Positions 34,803-41,304 of a stretch of 64,000 nt of DNA are shown piece by piece. Origin of the DNA: Allonocardiopsis opalescens (GTDB lineage Bacteria > Actinomycetota > Actinomycetes > Streptosporangiales > Streptosporangiaceae); NCBI RefSeq assembly GCF_003002095.1, contig NZ_PVZC01000001.1, positions 62,001 to 126,000 on the forward strand. The letters run 5' to 3'. The notes under the pieces are model-generated. The model saw only the letters and a list, made by a program, of their open reading frames with translations, searched no databases and was not told the origin of the DNA. Numbering within the stretch: the stretch's first letter is position 1; every line of letters begins with the position of its first letter. Both the position numbers and the translations under genes were made by a program.

Positions 34803-36773
34803 ATGCCTGAACCACTGCGGTCCGCCGACCCCAGGGAGCTGGGCGCGTACCGCCTGGTAAGCCGGCTGGGCCAAGGGGGGCAGGGCGTCGTCTACCTCGG
34901 CGAGGCGCCGGACGGCCGCAAGGTCGCCGTCAAGGTCCTCAACAAGGAGTGGGCCGGCGATCCCAAGCTGCGGGAGCGCTTCACCAAGGAGGTGAACGCG
35001 GCCCGCCGGGTCGCCCACTTCTGCACCGCCGCCGTCCTGGACGCCGAGCTGGAGGCCGAGCCGCCCTACGTCATCAGCGAGTTCGTCGAGGGGCCCTCGC
35101 TGCAGCAGGCCATCGAGGACAGCGGTCCGCGCAGCGGCGAGGCGCTGCACAAGCTCGCCGTCGGCACCGCCACCGCGCTCGCCGCCATCCACGAGGCCGG
35201 CGTCGTGCACCGCGACTTCAAGCCCGCCAACGTGCTGCTGGCCGCCGACCACCTGCGCGTGGTCGACTTCGGCGTCGCCCGGGTCGTCGACAGCGCCGTC
35301 ACCCAGACCGCGTCCATCATGGGCACCCCCGCCTACATGGCGCCCGAGCAGCTGATGGGCGAGCTGGTCACCCCGGCCGTCGACGTCTTCGCCTGGGGCT
35401 GCGTGATCGCCTTCGCCGCCACCGGCAAGCCGCCCTTCGGCTCCGACACGGTGCCCAAGGTGATGAACCGCGTCCTGAAGGAGCCGCCGAACCTCGACGG
35501 CTTCACCGGCCCGCTGCGCACCATCGTCGAAGAGGCGCTGGACAAGGAGAAGCAGCACCGCCCGAGCGCCTCGCTGCTGCTCAGCCGGCTGCTGCTCGGC
35601 CACGGCTCCGAGACCCCGCTCCCCATCGAGCAGGCGCTGAGCCAGGGCCAGCGCACCGCCGTGTGGACCCAGGACGTGCTGTGGCCCGGCGCGGGCCGCA
35701 GCGGCGGCCGCCGCTCGGGCTCCTCCCCGGCCACCCCGGCGTCGGGGCCGCAGCCGGCCTTCCCGCAGCCCGCTCCCGGCACCCCTCAGCCCTACCCCGC
35801 CGGCCACGCCTCGGGCCCCCAGGCCGGCTTCCCGCAGACCCCGCCGGGCGGCGGGCGCGGCTCGGGCGGGCAGCCCGCCTGGTCGGCGCAGCCCTCCGCC
35901 CCGCAGCAGCCCGCGCCGCCGCAGCCGTCCACCCCCGCCCAGGGCTGGCAGCAGCCCACCGGCTACAACCCCGGCCAGGGCTCGGGCCCCCGGCCCGGCC
36001 AGTACCCGCCCGGCGGCTTCCCCCCGGGCCCGCGGCCCGGCGCGCAGCCGCCGGCCTACGGCAGCGGCCCGCAGCCCAACCCCCGCCAGCCCTCCTCCTA
36101 CGGCAGCGGCCCGCAGCCGCAGCAGCCCTACGGCTACCAGGCCCCGACCGCGGGCTACCAGCAGCAGACCCCCGGCGGCGGCTACCAGCCCCCGGCGGCC
36201 GGCGGGTACGGCCCCACCCAGGGCTACCAGCCGCCCGCCCAGGGCTACCAGCAGCCCGGCCCGGGCGGCGGCGCGAGCGCCTTCCCGCCGCCGCGCCCCG
36301 CCGCCGAGTTCCCGTCCGGGCGCAAGAGCCGCACCGGCCTGTACGTCGGCATCGGCATCGGCGCGGCGGTGCTGGTCGTGGTCGCCATCGTGGCGGTGCT
36401 CATGCTCCGGCCGAGCACGGACTTCGGCCCCGAGTACGTCGGCGGCTGGTCCGGCTACGACCCCACCAACACCTACGCGGTGAGCGTCGAGGTGGACGAG
36501 GGCGACACCGCCCAGCTCAGCCTGGCCGCCCTCTCGGGCGACGACCAGCCGGACTGCACCTACGCCCTGACCACCTACGACGTCGGCGACCCCGAGGACC
36601 CCCAGACGGCGGGCCACTGGATGAACGCGGTGCAGGGCACCTCCTCGGGCGAGGTCGAGTGCCCCGCCTACTCCTACGTGGTGCTGGAGAACCGCGACGG
36701 CGTGCTGCTGGTCAACGCGGGCCCGTCCAACCAGAACGTCCCGGCGCTGGCCAGCCTGTACCCGGACGACTGA
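34803..36773 (+). CDS. Transmembrane Ser/Thr protein kinase with C-terminal extracellular sensor domain
   Basis: 656 residues. The cytoplasmic Hanks-type kinase domain (about 15-270) has the glycine loop LGQGGQGVVYLG (22-33), VAVK (Lys44), HRDFKPANVLL (Asp138), DFG (155-157) and APE (180-182), so it looks active. A Pro/Gln/Gly/Tyr-rich linker (about 290-510) leads to one TM helix (about 514-537, VGIGIGAAVLVVVAIVAVLML). The last 117 residues form an extracellular domain starting YVGGWSGYD with two cysteines (DCTYAL; VECPAY) and the strand YVVLENRDGVLLVNAG. The same domain recurs in neighbouring small proteins. ATG start with GGGAGAG upstream. Confidence 0.93.
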   Translation: MPEPLRSADPRELGAYRLVSRLGQGGQGVVYLGEAPDGRKVAVKVLNKEWAGDPKLRERFTKEVNAARRVAHFCTAAVLDAELEAEPPYVISEFVEGPSLQQAIEDSGPRSGEALHKLAVGTATALAAIHEAGVVHRDFKPANVLLAADHLRVVDFGVARVVDSAVTQTASIMGTPAYMAPEQLMGELVTPAVDVFAWGCVIAFAATGKPPFGSDTVPKVMNRVLKEPPNLDGFTGPLRTIVEEALDKEKQHRPSASLLLSRLLLGHGSETPLPIEQALSQGQRTAVWTQDVLWPGAGRSGGRRSGSSPATPASGPQPAFPQPAPGTPQPYPAGHASGPQAGFPQTPPGGGRGSGGQPAWSAQPSAPQQPAPPQPSTPAQGWQQPTGYNPGQGSGPRPGQYPPGGFPPGPRPGAQPPAYGSGPQPNPRQPSSYGSGPQPQQPYGYQAPTAGYQQQTPGGGYQPPAAGGYGPTQGYQPPAQGYQQPGPGGGASAFPPPRPAAEFPSGRKSRTGLYVGIGIGAAVLVVVAIVAVLMLRPSTDFGPEYVGGWSGYDPTNTYAVSVEVDEGDTAQLSLAALSGDDQPDCTYALTTYDVGDPEDPQTAGHWMNAVQGTSSGEVECPAYSYVVLENRDGVLLVNAGPSNQNVPALASLYPDD

Positions 36774-37093
36774 GGCCGCGGAGGCGGCCGGACGCCCCTT
36801 GTGTCCGACCGCACTGATCAGGTACTAGGGTGGGGCGGAGTTTCCGGTCGCCCGGTATTACCGGTTTCCGGATCGTCGCTTCGCATTCAAGTGCATATGT
36901 CCGTGCAGAGAGCGGTCCGCGCCGTCTCGGCCGCGCATCGGTGATCGCTCATTCCCCTCATCGGGAACCCCGCCACGGTCCTTGGCATCTCACCCCCTGT
37001 GCCCCCATCGGTTCCGACGGTGCGTGTCGGCGGCCGGCCGTCTCGCGCTCCGACACGGGGGACGAGTTCTCGGCCGTCCACGAGGAGGCATCC
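36774..37093. other. Intergenic region, leader of the first small membrane protein
   Basis: 320 bp without a gene. Its last 26 nt (37071-37096, including the GAGGAGG ribosome-binding site and GTG) are nearly identical (23/26) to the leader at 38834-38859, a sign that leader and gene were duplicated together. No clear promoter is identified. Confidence 0.5.
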
Positions 37094-37924
37094 GTGTCCT
37101 ACCCGGGAGGATCACCCTACGATCCGCAGTCCGGTTATCCGTCAGGGCCGCAGGGCGGCTACCCGCCCTCCGGTCCCCAGCCCGGCTACCAGCAGTCGGG
37201 GCCGCAGGGCGGCTACCCGCCGCCCGGCGGCATGCCACCCGGTGGGCCCGGCGGCCCGGGCGGCTACGGCCCTCCGCCGCCCCCGCCGCCCAAGAGCAAG
37301 ACCGGCCTGATCATCGGCATCGTCGTCGGCGTGCTGGTGCTCGGCGTCGTCGCGGTGATCGGCGTGGTGTTCTTCATGAACCAGGGCGGCACGCCGGCGG
37401 GCGACCAGCCGCCGGCCGCCGGCGGCGGCGAGGCGTCCTCCGCCCCCTCGGCGGGCGAGGAGGGCGGCGAGGCCGGCGGTGAGACCGGCGGCGACAGCGG
37501 CGGTGACTCCGGCGGCGACACCGGCGGCGGCGGTGGCGGCGACGCCTTCTCCGCCGCCTACGCCGGCACCTGGAGCGGCATGATCGACTCCGCCCGGGCC
37601 GACTACACCTCCTACGCCGCCACCGAGGCCAGCGCCGTGATCGAGGAGGGCACCACCAACGCCCAGCTGCGGCTCGGCGGCTCCTTCGGCGGCGACGTCG
37701 AGTGCGCCTGGGACCTCAGCCTGGTGGAGTACCGGGCCGAGGACTCCTCGCCGGACATCGACGACAGCGGCTACTGGATGCAGGGCAGCCTCACCCAGGG
37801 CTCCGACTGCCCCACCTTCGATTCGGTGGTCCTGGAGGAGCAGGGCGGCTCGCTGCTGGTCTACGCCCAGGACTCCGGCGAGACCGAACAGATCTCCCCG
37901 CTGGCCCAGATGTCCAGGGAGTGA
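37094..37924 (+). CDS. Single-pass membrane protein with the kinase-type sensor domain
   Basis: 276 residues with no kinase. A cytoplasmic tail rich in Gly-Tyr-Pro-Pro repeats (SGPQGGYPPSGPQPGY) ends in a Pro run. One TM helix follows (about 74-95, TGLIIGIVVGVLVLGVVAVIGVVFF), then an acidic Gly/Glu/Asp linker and a 115-residue outer domain (YAGTWSGMI; DYTSYAATEA; VECAWDL; GYWMQGSLTQGSDCP; VVLEEQGGSLLVYA). The outer domain is homologous to that of the upstream kinase, with both cysteines kept. GTG start with AGGAGG 6 nt upstream. Function unknown; probably a co-receptor or decoy in the kinase system. Confidence 0.75.
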   Translation: MSYPGGSPYDPQSGYPSGPQGGYPPSGPQPGYQQSGPQGGYPPPGGMPPGGPGGPGGYGPPPPPPPKSKTGLIIGIVVGVLVLGVVAVIGVVFFMNQGGTPAGDQPPAAGGGEASSAPSAGEEGGEAGGETGGDSGGDSGGDTGGGGGGDAFSAAYAGTWSGMIDSARADYTSYAATEASAVIEEGTTNAQLRLGGSFGGDVECAWDLSLVEYRAEDSSPDIDDSGYWMQGSLTQGSDCPTFDSVVLEEQGGSLLVYAQDSGETEQISPLAQMSRE

Positions 37925-37930
37925 TCCCGC

Positions 37931-37961
37931 CGCCCCCGGGCCGAACACCGGCCCGGGGGCG
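37931..37961 (+). terminator. Stem-loop terminator
   Basis: Perfect 12-bp arms (CGCCCCCGGGCC and its complement) with a 7-nt loop, starting 6 bp after the stop codon. A second, weaker hairpin follows at about 37972-37999. Confidence 0.7.
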
Positions 37962-38046
37962 TACGCCCGCGATGCGGCGTCCCCGTGCGGGGCGCCGCAC
38001 GCGTGCGTTACATTCGGGAGCCGTTGCCCATCCCTGGAGGACGCTG

Positions 38047-38661
38047 ATGCCAGCATCCGAGCACGCACAGCCCGGAGACCTCGGTGTGGCCGACGCCCCG
38101 TCGGCGGAGTCGGCGGAGGATCTGGCCGCTTTCGGCCCGGTCGCCTTCGCCGCCGACGACGAGGCGCCGCCGCAGCGCCGCCCGCACACCGTGCTCGTCC
38201 TCGCCTGCGGGGCGCTCGGCTTCGCCCTGCTCGCCGCGGTGGTGGTGCTGCTGTTCGTGAGCGACGGACCCGAGGACCCCGTCTCGCCGGCCGGCCTCGG
38301 CGACGACCCCGCGGCCGCCCCGGCCGGCGACGGCGTCTTCCCCGCCGACCTCGAAGGCGAGTGGCAGGGCACCCTGGAGCGCGTCGACGGCTCCACCTTC
38401 GAGGTCACCGTCTCCATCGAGCCGGGCGCCGCCCAGGCCGCCGTTGCCCACGGCGAGTGCACCGGGGTGCTGACCGCCGAGCGCGATGTCGTGGGCACCG
38501 TGTCGGCGGCCGCCGACATCTCCCAGGGGCCGGCCGAGTGCCACTACGCCGGCAGCGCCGACCTCAGCCGCGAGGGCTCGGGCCTGCGGCTCTACCTCAA
38601 CGGCGGCGAGGATCCGTCGACCTCCGCGTCGATGTCCTCCGGAAGTCTCAACAGGGGCTGA
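38047..38661 (+). CDS. Single-pass membrane protein with short outer domain
   Basis: 204 residues. A cytoplasmic acidic N terminus of about 48 residues precedes one TM helix (TVLVLACGALGFALLAAVVVLLFV) and an outer domain starting LEGEWQGTLERVDG. Two cysteines occur in GECTGVL and AECHYAG, and the domain closes with GLRLYLNGG. The G-x-W-x-G start and cysteine pair relate it, more distantly, to the sensor domains of its neighbours. ATG start with CTGGAGGA upstream. No enzymatic motif; its place between the two Ser/Thr kinase genes suggests a role in that signalling cluster. Confidence 0.7.
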   Translation: MPASEHAQPGDLGVADAPSAESAEDLAAFGPVAFAADDEAPPQRRPHTVLVLACGALGFALLAAVVVLLFVSDGPEDPVSPAGLGDDPAAAPAGDGVFPADLEGEWQGTLERVDGSTFEVTVSIEPGAAQAAVAHGECTGVLTAERDVVGTVSAAADISQGPAECHYAGSADLSREGSGLRLYLNGGEDPSTSASMSSGSLNRG

Positions 38662-38856
38662 ACAGCCGTCGGAACGCGTTCGGCTTGCCCCGAAATGCGA
38701 TACATTCGCCCGGTGGGGGTTGACTGATCGCAAAACGACGCTGCGAGCGGCGTCCATGTGGAACCGTGCCCGGAGCGTTGGCATCTGAGTCAACGCGGCC
38801 CGGTGGTGGTGAACCGCCCAGAGCTGTGATTCCCGGCCGTCCACAAGGAGGCTTAC

Positions 38857-39744
38857 GTGTCTAATGGTGGCTACCCGGATCCAAATTCCGGCTACCCGAG
38901 CGGCGGATATCCGGGTGGCGGCTACCCTCCGCCCGGCGACCCCTCCGGTGGATACCCGTCCGGCGGCTATCCCAGCGGGCATCCCTCCGGCGGCTACCCG
39001 TCCGGTGACCCCTCCGGGGGCTACCCCGGCCACGCCGCCCCCAGCGGCGGCTACGGCGACATGGGCGGCGGCTACCCGCCGCCCGGCGGCGGCGGATTCG
39101 GCCCGCCGCCCCCGCCGCCGCCCCCCAAGAGCAACACCGGGATGATCGTCGGCATCACCGCCGGTGTGCTGGTGCTCGGCATCGTGGCGATCGTCGCGGC
39201 CGTCATCCTGCTCCGCGACGACAGCCCCGAACCCGGCCCCGACCCCGGCCCGGTCGCCCAGAGCAGCAACCCGCCGTCCGACCCCTCCGAGCCCCCGCCC
39301 AGCGAGGAGCCCGAACCGGAGGAGAGCACCCCGGAGAGCGGCGGTGGCGGCGGTGGCGGCGACATGGCCTTCGGCGAGGACTACGGCGGCTCCTGGAGCG
39401 GCAGCATCCAGTCCAGCCGCGACGACTACACCGACTACGCCGCCACCGCGGCGTGGATCGAGGTCGAGGCCGGCGGCACCACCGCCGAGCTGAGCATCGG
39501 CTCGGCCAGCGGCCTGCCCGGCAGCGCGGAGTGCACCTGGAGCCTCACCACCTACCAGTACAACCCCGAGCCCACCTCCGCCGACACCAACGACAGCGGC
39601 TACTACATGAACGCCTCCCTCACCCAGGGCGACAACTGCCCCGACTGGGAGATCGTCGTACTGGAGCGGATCGGCACCCTCAACGTCTACGCCGGGCCGT
39701 CCGGCGAGGACATCCCGCCGCTGGTGGCGGCCTCGCCGCAGTAA
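38857..39744 (+). CDS. Single-pass membrane protein with the kinase-type sensor domain (paralogue)
   Basis: 295 residues, a close paralogue of the 276-residue protein encoded 1 kb upstream. It has a tail of GGYPSG(D/H)PSGGYP repeats and a Pro run, one TM helix ([23 protein letters not shown]), an acidic Pro/Glu/Ser linker and the outer domain ([59 protein letters not shown]). GTG start with AAGGAGG. The 26-nt leader is shared with the paralogue. A perfect palindrome ends the gene. Confidence 0.75.
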
Positions 39745-39765
39745 TCCGCCAGTGCCGCAGCCCCC

Positions 39766-39797
39766 GGCCGGTGCCGTCCGCGCGGACGGCACCGGCC
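39766..39797 (+). terminator. 32-bp perfect palindrome, stem-loop terminator
   Basis: 16 bases (GGCCGGTGCCGTCCGC) followed directly by their reverse complement, 21 bp after the stop of the small membrane protein. In RNA the central GCGC would form the loop. Confidence 0.7.
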
Positions 39798-39945
39798 TCC
39801 GCCGCCGGCGGTCCCCCCGCGGGGCGTGTCCGGCTCCGGTAGGTTCGTACGCGCACGACCGCGCGGGAGCGCCGGTACCGGCGCCGTGCGATGCTGGAGG
39901 CGCGGTCCCGGGCCGAGGGGCCGGCGCTCAGACTGGAGGAGCTTC

Positions 39946-41304
39946 ATGCCCGACGCCGAACCGCTGCTGAGCGGCGACCCCGAGGAACTCGGGAGCTACC
40001 GCCTGCTCGGCCGGCTGGGGCGGGGCGGGCAGGGCGTCGTCTACCTCGGCGAGGACACCGGCGGCGTCCGCGTCGCGGTCAAGGTGCTCAACGACGAATG
40101 GGCCGCCAACTCCTCGATGCGCGAGCGCTTCGAGAAGGAGGTGCGCGCCGCCCGCCGGGTGGCGCCCTTCTGCACCGCCCAGGTCCTGGACGTCAACCTC
40201 GACCACGAGCCCCCGTTCGTGGTCAGCGAGTTCGTGCAGGGTCCCAGCCTGCAGGACGCCGTCGCCGACGAGGGACCCCGCTCGGGCTCCGGGCTGCACC
40301 GCCTCGCCGTGGCCACCGCCACCGCGCTGGCCGCCATCCACCAGGCCGGCATCGTGCACCGCGACTTCAAGCCGGGCAACGTACTGCTGGGCCCCGACGG
40401 CGCCCGGGTGATCGACTTCGGCATCGCCAAGGCGGTCGACGGCACCGCCACCCTCACCAGCTCCATCGTCGGCACCCCCGCCTACATGTCGCCCGAGCAG
40501 GTCGAGGGCAGGCAGGTCGACACCAAGGCCGACATCTTCGCCTGGGGCGGCGTGATCGCCTTCGCCGCCACCGGCCGCGCGCCCTTCGGCTCCGACAGCG
40601 TCCCGGCCGTCGTGCAGCGGGTGATGACCGCGGATCCCGAGCTGGCCGGCCTGGACGAGCCGCTGCTGGGCATCGTCCGCGACTGCCTGGACAAGGACCC
40701 CTCCCGGCGCCCCAGCGCGCAGCGCATCCTGCTGCGGCTGCTCGGCCACGACGACGCGGAGGCCGACGACAAGCCCGGGCCGGAGAGCATGCTGGAGCAG
40801 GGCCAGCGCGCCGCGCTGGGCTCGATGGGCTCCACCCCGCACTCCGGCTTCCCCGGCGCGGTGCCCTCGCCGCCGCTCGGCCGGCCCGGCACCGGGCCGC
40901 ACGGCTACCCGGGCCCCGGCCGGCCCGCCGCCCCGCACCGCACCGGCCCGCCCACCGGCCCCCCGACCGGCCCGCCCGTTCCCGGGCCGATGCGCGCCCC
41001 CGGGATGACCAACCCGGCCGGCTTCCCCAACCGGAGCTTCACCGGCCCGTCGGGACCGGGCACCGGACGCACCCTGCCGCCGCAGCCGCAGCCGCGGCCG
41101 CCCGCGCAGCACGGCGTCGCCGGCCCGCCGAGGATGGCGCCGGGCGGCCCCGCGCCGCGCCCGCCCGTCCCGCCGCGCGGCTACACCCCCGCCCCGGCGC
41201 CGCGCTCCGATCCCGGCCTGCCCGCCTGGCTGCTGCCGGTGGTGGTCGGCTTCATGCTGCTGCTGGTGTTCATCGTGGTGCTGATCGGCCTGTCCAGCGG
41301 CTGA
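39946..41304 (+). CDS. Transmembrane Ser/Thr protein kinase without extracellular domain
   Basis: 452 residues. The kinase domain closely matches the other kinase of the cluster: LGRGGQGVVYLG, VAVKVLNDEW, HRDFKPGNVLL, IDFGIAKAV and MSPEQV, all catalytic motifs intact. A Pro/Gly-rich linker (about 275-420) leads to one TM helix (PAWLLPVVVGFMLLLVFIVVLIGL), and the protein ends four residues later, so no outer sensor exists. It may depend on the small sensor proteins encoded just upstream, or respond to cytoplasmic cues. ATG start with TGGAGGA upstream. Confidence 0.93.
   Translation: MPDAEPLLSGDPEELGSYRLLGRLGRGGQGVVYLGEDTGGVRVAVKVLNDEWAANSSMRERFEKEVRAARRVAPFCTAQVLDVNLDHEPPFVVSEFVQGPSLQDAVADEGPRSGSGLHRLAVATATALAAIHQAGIVHRDFKPGNVLLGPDGARVIDFGIAKAVDGTATLTSSIVGTPAYMSPEQVEGRQVDTKADIFAWGGVIAFAATGRAPFGSDSVPAVVQRVMTADPELAGLDEPLLGIVRDCLDKDPSRRPSAQRILLRLLGHDDAEADDKPGPESMLEQGQRAALGSMGSTPHSGFPGAVPSPPLGRPGTGPHGYPGPGRPAAPHRTGPPTGPPTGPPVPGPMRAPGMTNPAGFPNRSFTGPSGPGTGRTLPPQPQPRPPAQHGVAGPPRMAPGGPAPRPPVPPRGYTPAPAPRSDPGLPAWLLPVVVGFMLLLVFIVVLIGLSSG

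Follow-up and report, generated by a model that had tools for sequence, protein, structure and literature searches.

We analyzed a 64,000-nucleotide stretch of the Allonocardiopsis opalescens genome (NCBI RefSeq assembly GCF_003002095.1, contig NZ_PVZC01000001.1, positions 62,001 to 126,000 of the forward strand), hereafter the window, and focused on a cluster of five genes in which two membrane kinases, K1 and K2, flank three single-pass membrane proteins without a kinase domain, P276, P204 and P295. K1 and the three stand-alone proteins carry related versions of one small outer domain, predicted to be a β-barrel; K2 carries none. The genes and domains, with positions in the window, are as follows.

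34803..36773, plus strand: K1, 656 aa, membrane Hanks-type Ser/Thr kinase, kinase domain at residues 16-261
36417..36770, plus strand: predicted outer β-barrel domain of K1, residues 539-656, with two Cys (DCTY, ECP)
37094..37924, plus strand: P276, 276 aa, single-pass, no kinase domain; Gly/Pro/Tyr cytoplasmic tail, transmembrane (TM) helix, outer barrel
37541..37921, plus strand: predicted outer β-barrel domain of P276, homologous in sequence to the K1 and P295 domains
38047..38661, plus strand: P204, 204 aa, single-pass, no kinase domain, without a Gly/Tyr/Pro tail
38329..38658, plus strand: predicted outer barrel of P204, a remote family member; eight-stranded barrel in AlphaFold2 (mean predicted local distance difference test score, pLDDT, 83.8; predicted template modeling score, pTM, 0.78)
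38857..39744, plus strand: P295, 295 aa, single-pass, no kinase domain; Gly/Pro/Tyr cytoplasmic tail, TM helix, outer barrel
39364..39741, plus strand: predicted outer β-barrel domain of P295; eight-stranded barrel in AlphaFold2 (mean pLDDT 84.6, pTM 0.81)
39946..41304, plus strand: K2, 452 aa, a "bare" membrane Hanks-type kinase with its TM helix at the C terminus and no outer domain

An earlier note on this stretch, made from the sequence alone, had described two Hanks-type kinases flanking three single-pass proteins, and the gene products bear this out. PF00069 matches both K1 (6e-44, 150.9 bits) and K2 (8e-40, 137.3 bits; cut-off 31.7), and the catalytic motifs VAVKVLN (with its Lys), HRDFKP and DFG are present in both, which by sequence are Hanks-type Ser/Thr kinases. 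Each of the five proteins has one strong hydrophobic segment. In K1 the kinase domain is followed by a Gly/Pro/Gln/Tyr-rich juxtamembrane region, the TM helix and the outer barrel; in K2, as the earlier note had overlooked, only a few residues follow the hydrophobic helix, leaving no outer domain. For K2 the most likely start is ATG 39946, where GGAGG upstream makes the stronger ribosome-binding site, rather than the longest-frame GTG 39826. The view that the small proteins copy the inner layout of the kinase applies to P276 and P295, whose Gly/Pro/Tyr tails are similar in composition to the juxtamembrane region of the kinase, and not to P204, which lacks such a tail. All genes lie on the same strand, separated from K1 through to K2 by 320, 122, 195 and 201 bp, and scans for promoters and terminators were uninformative. 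The leaders of P276 and P295 are identical at 28 of 32 nt across the Shine–Dalgarno (SD) site and the start, which argues that these two genes are tandem duplicates.

We confirmed that the K1 outer domain recurs in P276 and P295, as the earlier note had it. The domains show 45-50% identity to that of P295, and with P295 as the query in a whole-genome search P276 was found at 1.6e-51 and the K1 domain at 1.7e-10; at the sequence level, the likeness of the three is homology and not chance. P204 had been proposed as a shorter, related form. It reached only 5.6 bits against a profile built from the other three domains, but its hhalign score of 21.6 exceeded those of ten shuffles (7.6-12.0) and its predicted fold agrees, which makes it a remote homolog; once relatives were added to the alignment it was found at E 4.5e-21, a value that by construction favors P204 because that alignment includes it. 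The shared motifs listed in the earlier note are present in K1, P295 and P276, except that the final strand of P276 ends in VYAQ instead of VYAG, and are largely missing from P204, which has GEWQG in place of GxWSG and no CP, VVLE or VYAG motif. All 59 copies of the domain that we examined in this and other genomes have the Trp and both of the Cys, and 58 of the 59 have the Gly of G-x-W.

The outer part had been thought to match no named domain and not to be PASTA, and library searches agreed. No Pfam or NCBIfam family matched the outer domains, nor did any match 57 relatives scanned one by one, and PDB sequence and profile searches returned nothing better than E 0.21. Similarity among lipocalin-class proteins often lies below sequence detection. 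Identity as a PASTA kinase (PknB/Stk1) was rejected, as K1 and K2 have no Pfam PASTA match and the NF033483 score is 189 bits against a cut-off of 450. We modeled the P295 and P204 domains with AlphaFold2 from a nine-sequence alignment of window and related-locus sequences, and both were confidently predicted to have the same type of fold, an eight-stranded β-barrel. Neither of the outcomes that the earlier note had named as refuting, a match to a well-described family or differing folds, was thus seen. Foldseek matched the P295 model to calycins, all with weak E-values (apolipoprotein M, nitrophorins, FABP/CRBP and nitrobindin). With VIA-align, for which the usual background is a Z of 7-8, the best match of P295 was Cap15 (7n35; Z 9.2, root-mean-square deviation (rmsd) 2.6, 95 residues aligned), while P204 matched designed barrels (Z 12.8, rmsd 2.1, 97 aligned), Cap15 (Z 10.9) and avidins (about 9). 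The matches from the two programs are mostly meander barrels. Cap15, as is predicted for these proteins, couples a membrane anchor to a minimal barrel of eight strands. It is a cyclic-dinucleotide receptor and an effector of the cyclic-oligonucleotide-based antiphage signaling system (CBASS), and its barrel is cytoplasmic, whereas the barrel here is predicted to lie outside and has no CBASS context; a defense-system reading was set aside, as there was no convincing PADLOC match.

A G-x-W motif at the 3-10 helix and strand A constitutes structurally conserved region (SCR) 1 of lipocalins, and SCR3 is a basic residue on the last strand that packs on the Trp and that outlier lipocalins also keep (PMC5040251). 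In our family the G-x-W was near invariant, as given above, and strand A lies at that place in both models; an SCR3-like ending (hydrophobic-x-Arg/Lys) was found in 34 of the 59 domains, though not in K1 or P295. The predicted eight-stranded meander with G-x-W near its first strand is thus like that of calycins, including the bacterial outlier lipocalin Tp0751 (PMC5040251), which was among the structural matches together with nitrophorins, FABPs and avidins. It differs from calycins in having no sequence relationship to them that these library and PDB searches could detect, in lacking the SCR3 basic residue in K1 and P295, and in being membrane-anchored, kinase-linked and equipped with an invariant Cys pair. 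We regard the predicted outer domain as calycin-like (lipocalin, fatty-acid-binding protein or avidin type), without placing it in the lipocalin family.

The domain is found both on kinases and on stand-alone proteins well beyond this cluster. A. opalescens itself has nine copies, three on its 26 kinases and six on stand-alone proteins. A profile search of 297 genomes of the class found a match at 1e-4 in 41, mostly from the family of the window (which includes Actinocorallia), and these counts are lower bounds, since scoring was limited to the top 15 candidates of each genome. A scan of named genomes gave no match with the three window domains and three loci with the Actinocorallia domains. 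Among the 59 copies examined, 23 are kinase ectodomains and 36 are stand-alone, and a hydrophobic segment precedes the barrel in every one. A second cluster in the A. opalescens genome (L009:8404-10632, contig C10) holds three kinase-less paralogs directly after valS, with outer domains about 66% identical and no kinase gene sharing their operon.

Kinase-less members of the family adjoin kinases in other genera as well. In five genomes (loci L072-L076; our genus labels g62, twice, g31, g78 and g64), a kinase gene whose product has a TM helix at its very C terminus begins (best-SD start) 50-64 bp past the stop codon of a stand-alone gene; these kinases form one clade (100/100), and the gene order, which we call locus A, is dapD-dapE-LOG-(unknown)-tag-barrel-kinase-ECH-pepA. 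In Actinocorallia (L031, L035 and L036), a kinase with a barrel is directly followed by a stand-alone barrel. When the stand-alone loci are sorted into nine types, three of these have an adjacent kinase. With 26 kinases per genome and ~6,000 genes assumed, the expectation for a locus is about 0.9%, giving p of about 6e-5; this value is rough because the sorting is our own and was made after the data were seen. In the dap/tag-pepA stand-alones (L071-L080, L082-L086 and L038) the TM helix is immediately preceded, on the cytoplasmic side, by a shared motif, SP[IV]Rx[ML]SLWPPPRSTRH, and it is kept with or without an adjacent kinase. This SLWPPPRSTRH-type juxtamembrane motif could be a docking or phosphorylation site. 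There are also conserved loci without a kinase. The order dap/tag-barrel-ECH-pepA is kept in g68 and some other genomes from which the kinase is absent, and a second conserved stand-alone locus, ino1-barrel-MFS beside a class A penicillin-binding protein gene (L032, L033, L069, L070, L091 and L093; ino1 encodes myo-inositol-1-phosphate synthase), has the same kinase-free character. The stand-alone barrels are therefore conserved as proteins in themselves, and any kinase partner that they have may be unlinked.

Trees of the kinase and barrel domains bear on how K1 arose. A manB-SIS-bare kinase arrangement occupies the same place in five other genera, and K2 is the ortholog of this bare kinase (95/91); the block between SIS and K2 is absent there and thus lineage-specific. 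The K1 kinase domain falls as sister (91/86) to the group formed by K2 and its bare manB-locus orthologs. A grouping of the K1 and K2 kinase domains alone is not rejected (p-AU 0.29, approximately unbiased test), so the duplications at this locus may have taken place in either order. The K1 barrel groups with the P295 barrel (99/89) inside a clade that is otherwise stand-alone (99/88), and for the K1 TM segment the score is 73 with P295 and P276 and 23 with K2. The simplest reading is that K1 is likely a bare kinase of the K2 line joined to the TM helix and barrel of a stand-alone protein. Across the domain tree there were at least seven switches between kinase and stand-alone forms.

That the barrel occurs both within kinases and on separate proteins, some of them encoded beside kinases with no outer part, suggests a detachable, shared kinase sensor, and the absence of an outer domain from K2 makes a split receptor plausible. 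We favor the explanation that this small extracellular calycin-like barrel is a modular sensor for transmembrane Hanks-type kinases, either fused to the kinase (K1) or carried on separate proteins (P276, P204 and P295) that act with bare kinases such as K2, and we give it an even chance of being correct. It is favored because of the fused and split forms, the three kinase-adjacent locus types and the conserved tail motif; the stand-alones would act as separate envelope proteins do for PknG, described below. The Lys/Arg residues before the TM helix and the two Cys point to a barrel outside the cell. We infer a co-receptor role in which the stand-alone barrels would recognize a ligand outside the cell or a component of the envelope, while the proteins would associate in the membrane with K2 and/or K1 through their TM and juxtamembrane parts; occupancy or clustering of the barrels would then bring kinase domains together for activation in trans. 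A bolder version, which we hold only tentatively, is that this undescribed barrel family forms a shared sensor pool, with kinase-less receptors in heteromers with ectodomain-less kinases and one ligand serving several receptors, as with the co-receptors of animal receptor kinases, and with K1-type proteins arising by fusion to a partner kinase.

Several observations weigh against a modular sensor acting with neighboring kinases. No kinase lies next to most of the stand-alones (those of eight g68 genomes, of L071, L086 and L038, of locus B and of the valS cluster), which speaks against an obligate stand-alone/kinase pair, and no ortholog of the locus A kinase was found in the g68, g22, g7 and g67 genomes (best 52-57% identity). 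Within the window, the gaps of 122-320 bp do not assure a single transcript. The barrel fold is a prediction from nine aligned sequences, the best Z of P295 is only a little above background, and the K1 barrel branch is long (1.41), making its exact sister uncertain. The kinase-free loci would fit a rival explanation in which the stand-alone barrels act independently in the envelope, whether as ligand carriers, as adhesins or as factors associated with the wall, kinases have recruited the barrel several times, and the present neighbors belong to no common complex; the orthologs kept at the ino1 locus and in g68, and the three valS copies of the same genome, are consistent with this. However, kinases adjoin stand-alones at three separate types of locus and the conserved motif of the locus A stand-alones points to a cytoplasmic partner, and we consider this explanation somewhat unlikely, though it is the rival we take most seriously.

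It is less probable still that the stand-alone proteins are kinase substrates or decoys, their tails phosphorylated or their barrels competing with K1 for ligand. Their tail composition is like that of the kinase juxtamembrane region, and the conserved SLWPPPRSTRH of the locus A tails contains Ser/Thr, but the P276 tail has one Thr and the P295 tail none (Ser and Tyr are present), the P204 tail is unrelated, and low-complexity Gly/Pro/Tyr tails are common among actinobacterial membrane proteins. We think it very unlikely that tandem duplication of K1 left P276 and P295 as by-products, consisting of barrel and TM helix without the kinase domain and having no settled function. Such an origin would fit the lineage-specific block, lacking in five other genera, and the leader common to both genes; the tree, however, nests K1 inside the stand-alones and not the reverse, the reading frames, SD sites, TM helices and Cys of P276 and P295 are intact at only about 50% identity, and stand-alone copies are conserved across many other genera.

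A modular sensor of this kind can be compared with several known systems. PknB/PrkC (PASTA) kinases, like K1, have a cytoplasmic PF00069 kinase domain, a disordered juxtamembrane region, one TM helix and a C-terminal extracellular sensor; unlike theirs, the K1 ectodomain is not made of PASTA repeats but is a single predicted β-barrel, unnamed in the libraries searched, that also occurs on kinase-less proteins. By kinase domain the closest curated model is that of Streptomyces AfsK (NF053615), but the scores of 222.9 and 214.3 bits come from the kinase domain only and fall far below the cut-off of 1300, and the AfsK C terminus consists of PQQ repeats (PMC1262709) rather than this barrel; equivalence to AfsK was rejected. 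The model we propose would work like GlnH-GlnX-PknG of Corynebacterium and Mycobacterium, where a Ser/Thr kinase senses through separate envelope proteins, a solute-binding lipoprotein and a four-TM helical receptor serving a soluble kinase (PMC9769921, PMC6069109). Here the arrangement is known from gene neighborhood and from fused and split forms, and it would involve a single-pass protein with a β-barrel beside membrane kinases. Outer sensors on membrane kinases, and sensors that are split off, were already known. For this barrel in the sensor role, and for its moving freely between kinases and stand-alone proteins, the libraries and open-access papers searched gave no precedent, and no account of this barrel domain in kinases was found in that literature.

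The inputs of bacterial Ser/Thr kinases are an open question, and TM kinases without an outer domain are especially puzzling. The conserved pairing of a stand-alone barrel gene with a bare-kinase gene offers a concrete, testable answer to what such kinases sense. The compact domain with its invariant Cys pair is suited to ligand screening, and the fused and split series in one genome (K1 versus K2 and P295) allows a test of a membrane protein as a bacterial kinase co-receptor.

Further loci showed features of their own. Another kinase lies near the valS cluster of A. opalescens (L009:5825-7864), facing it, and has a different ectodomain (FSLDVPEGWSV...). The valS neighborhoods of this cluster and of the Actinocorallia loci resembled each other, but we do not claim synteny, as valS precedes the barrels in one and comes after them in the other. 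The Actinocorallia kinase barrels (L031:6030-7922, L035:2988-4883 and L036:6563-8455) have a third Cys at their start (FC-x-DYAGTW), which is missing from their stand-alone neighbors and may form an extra disulfide.

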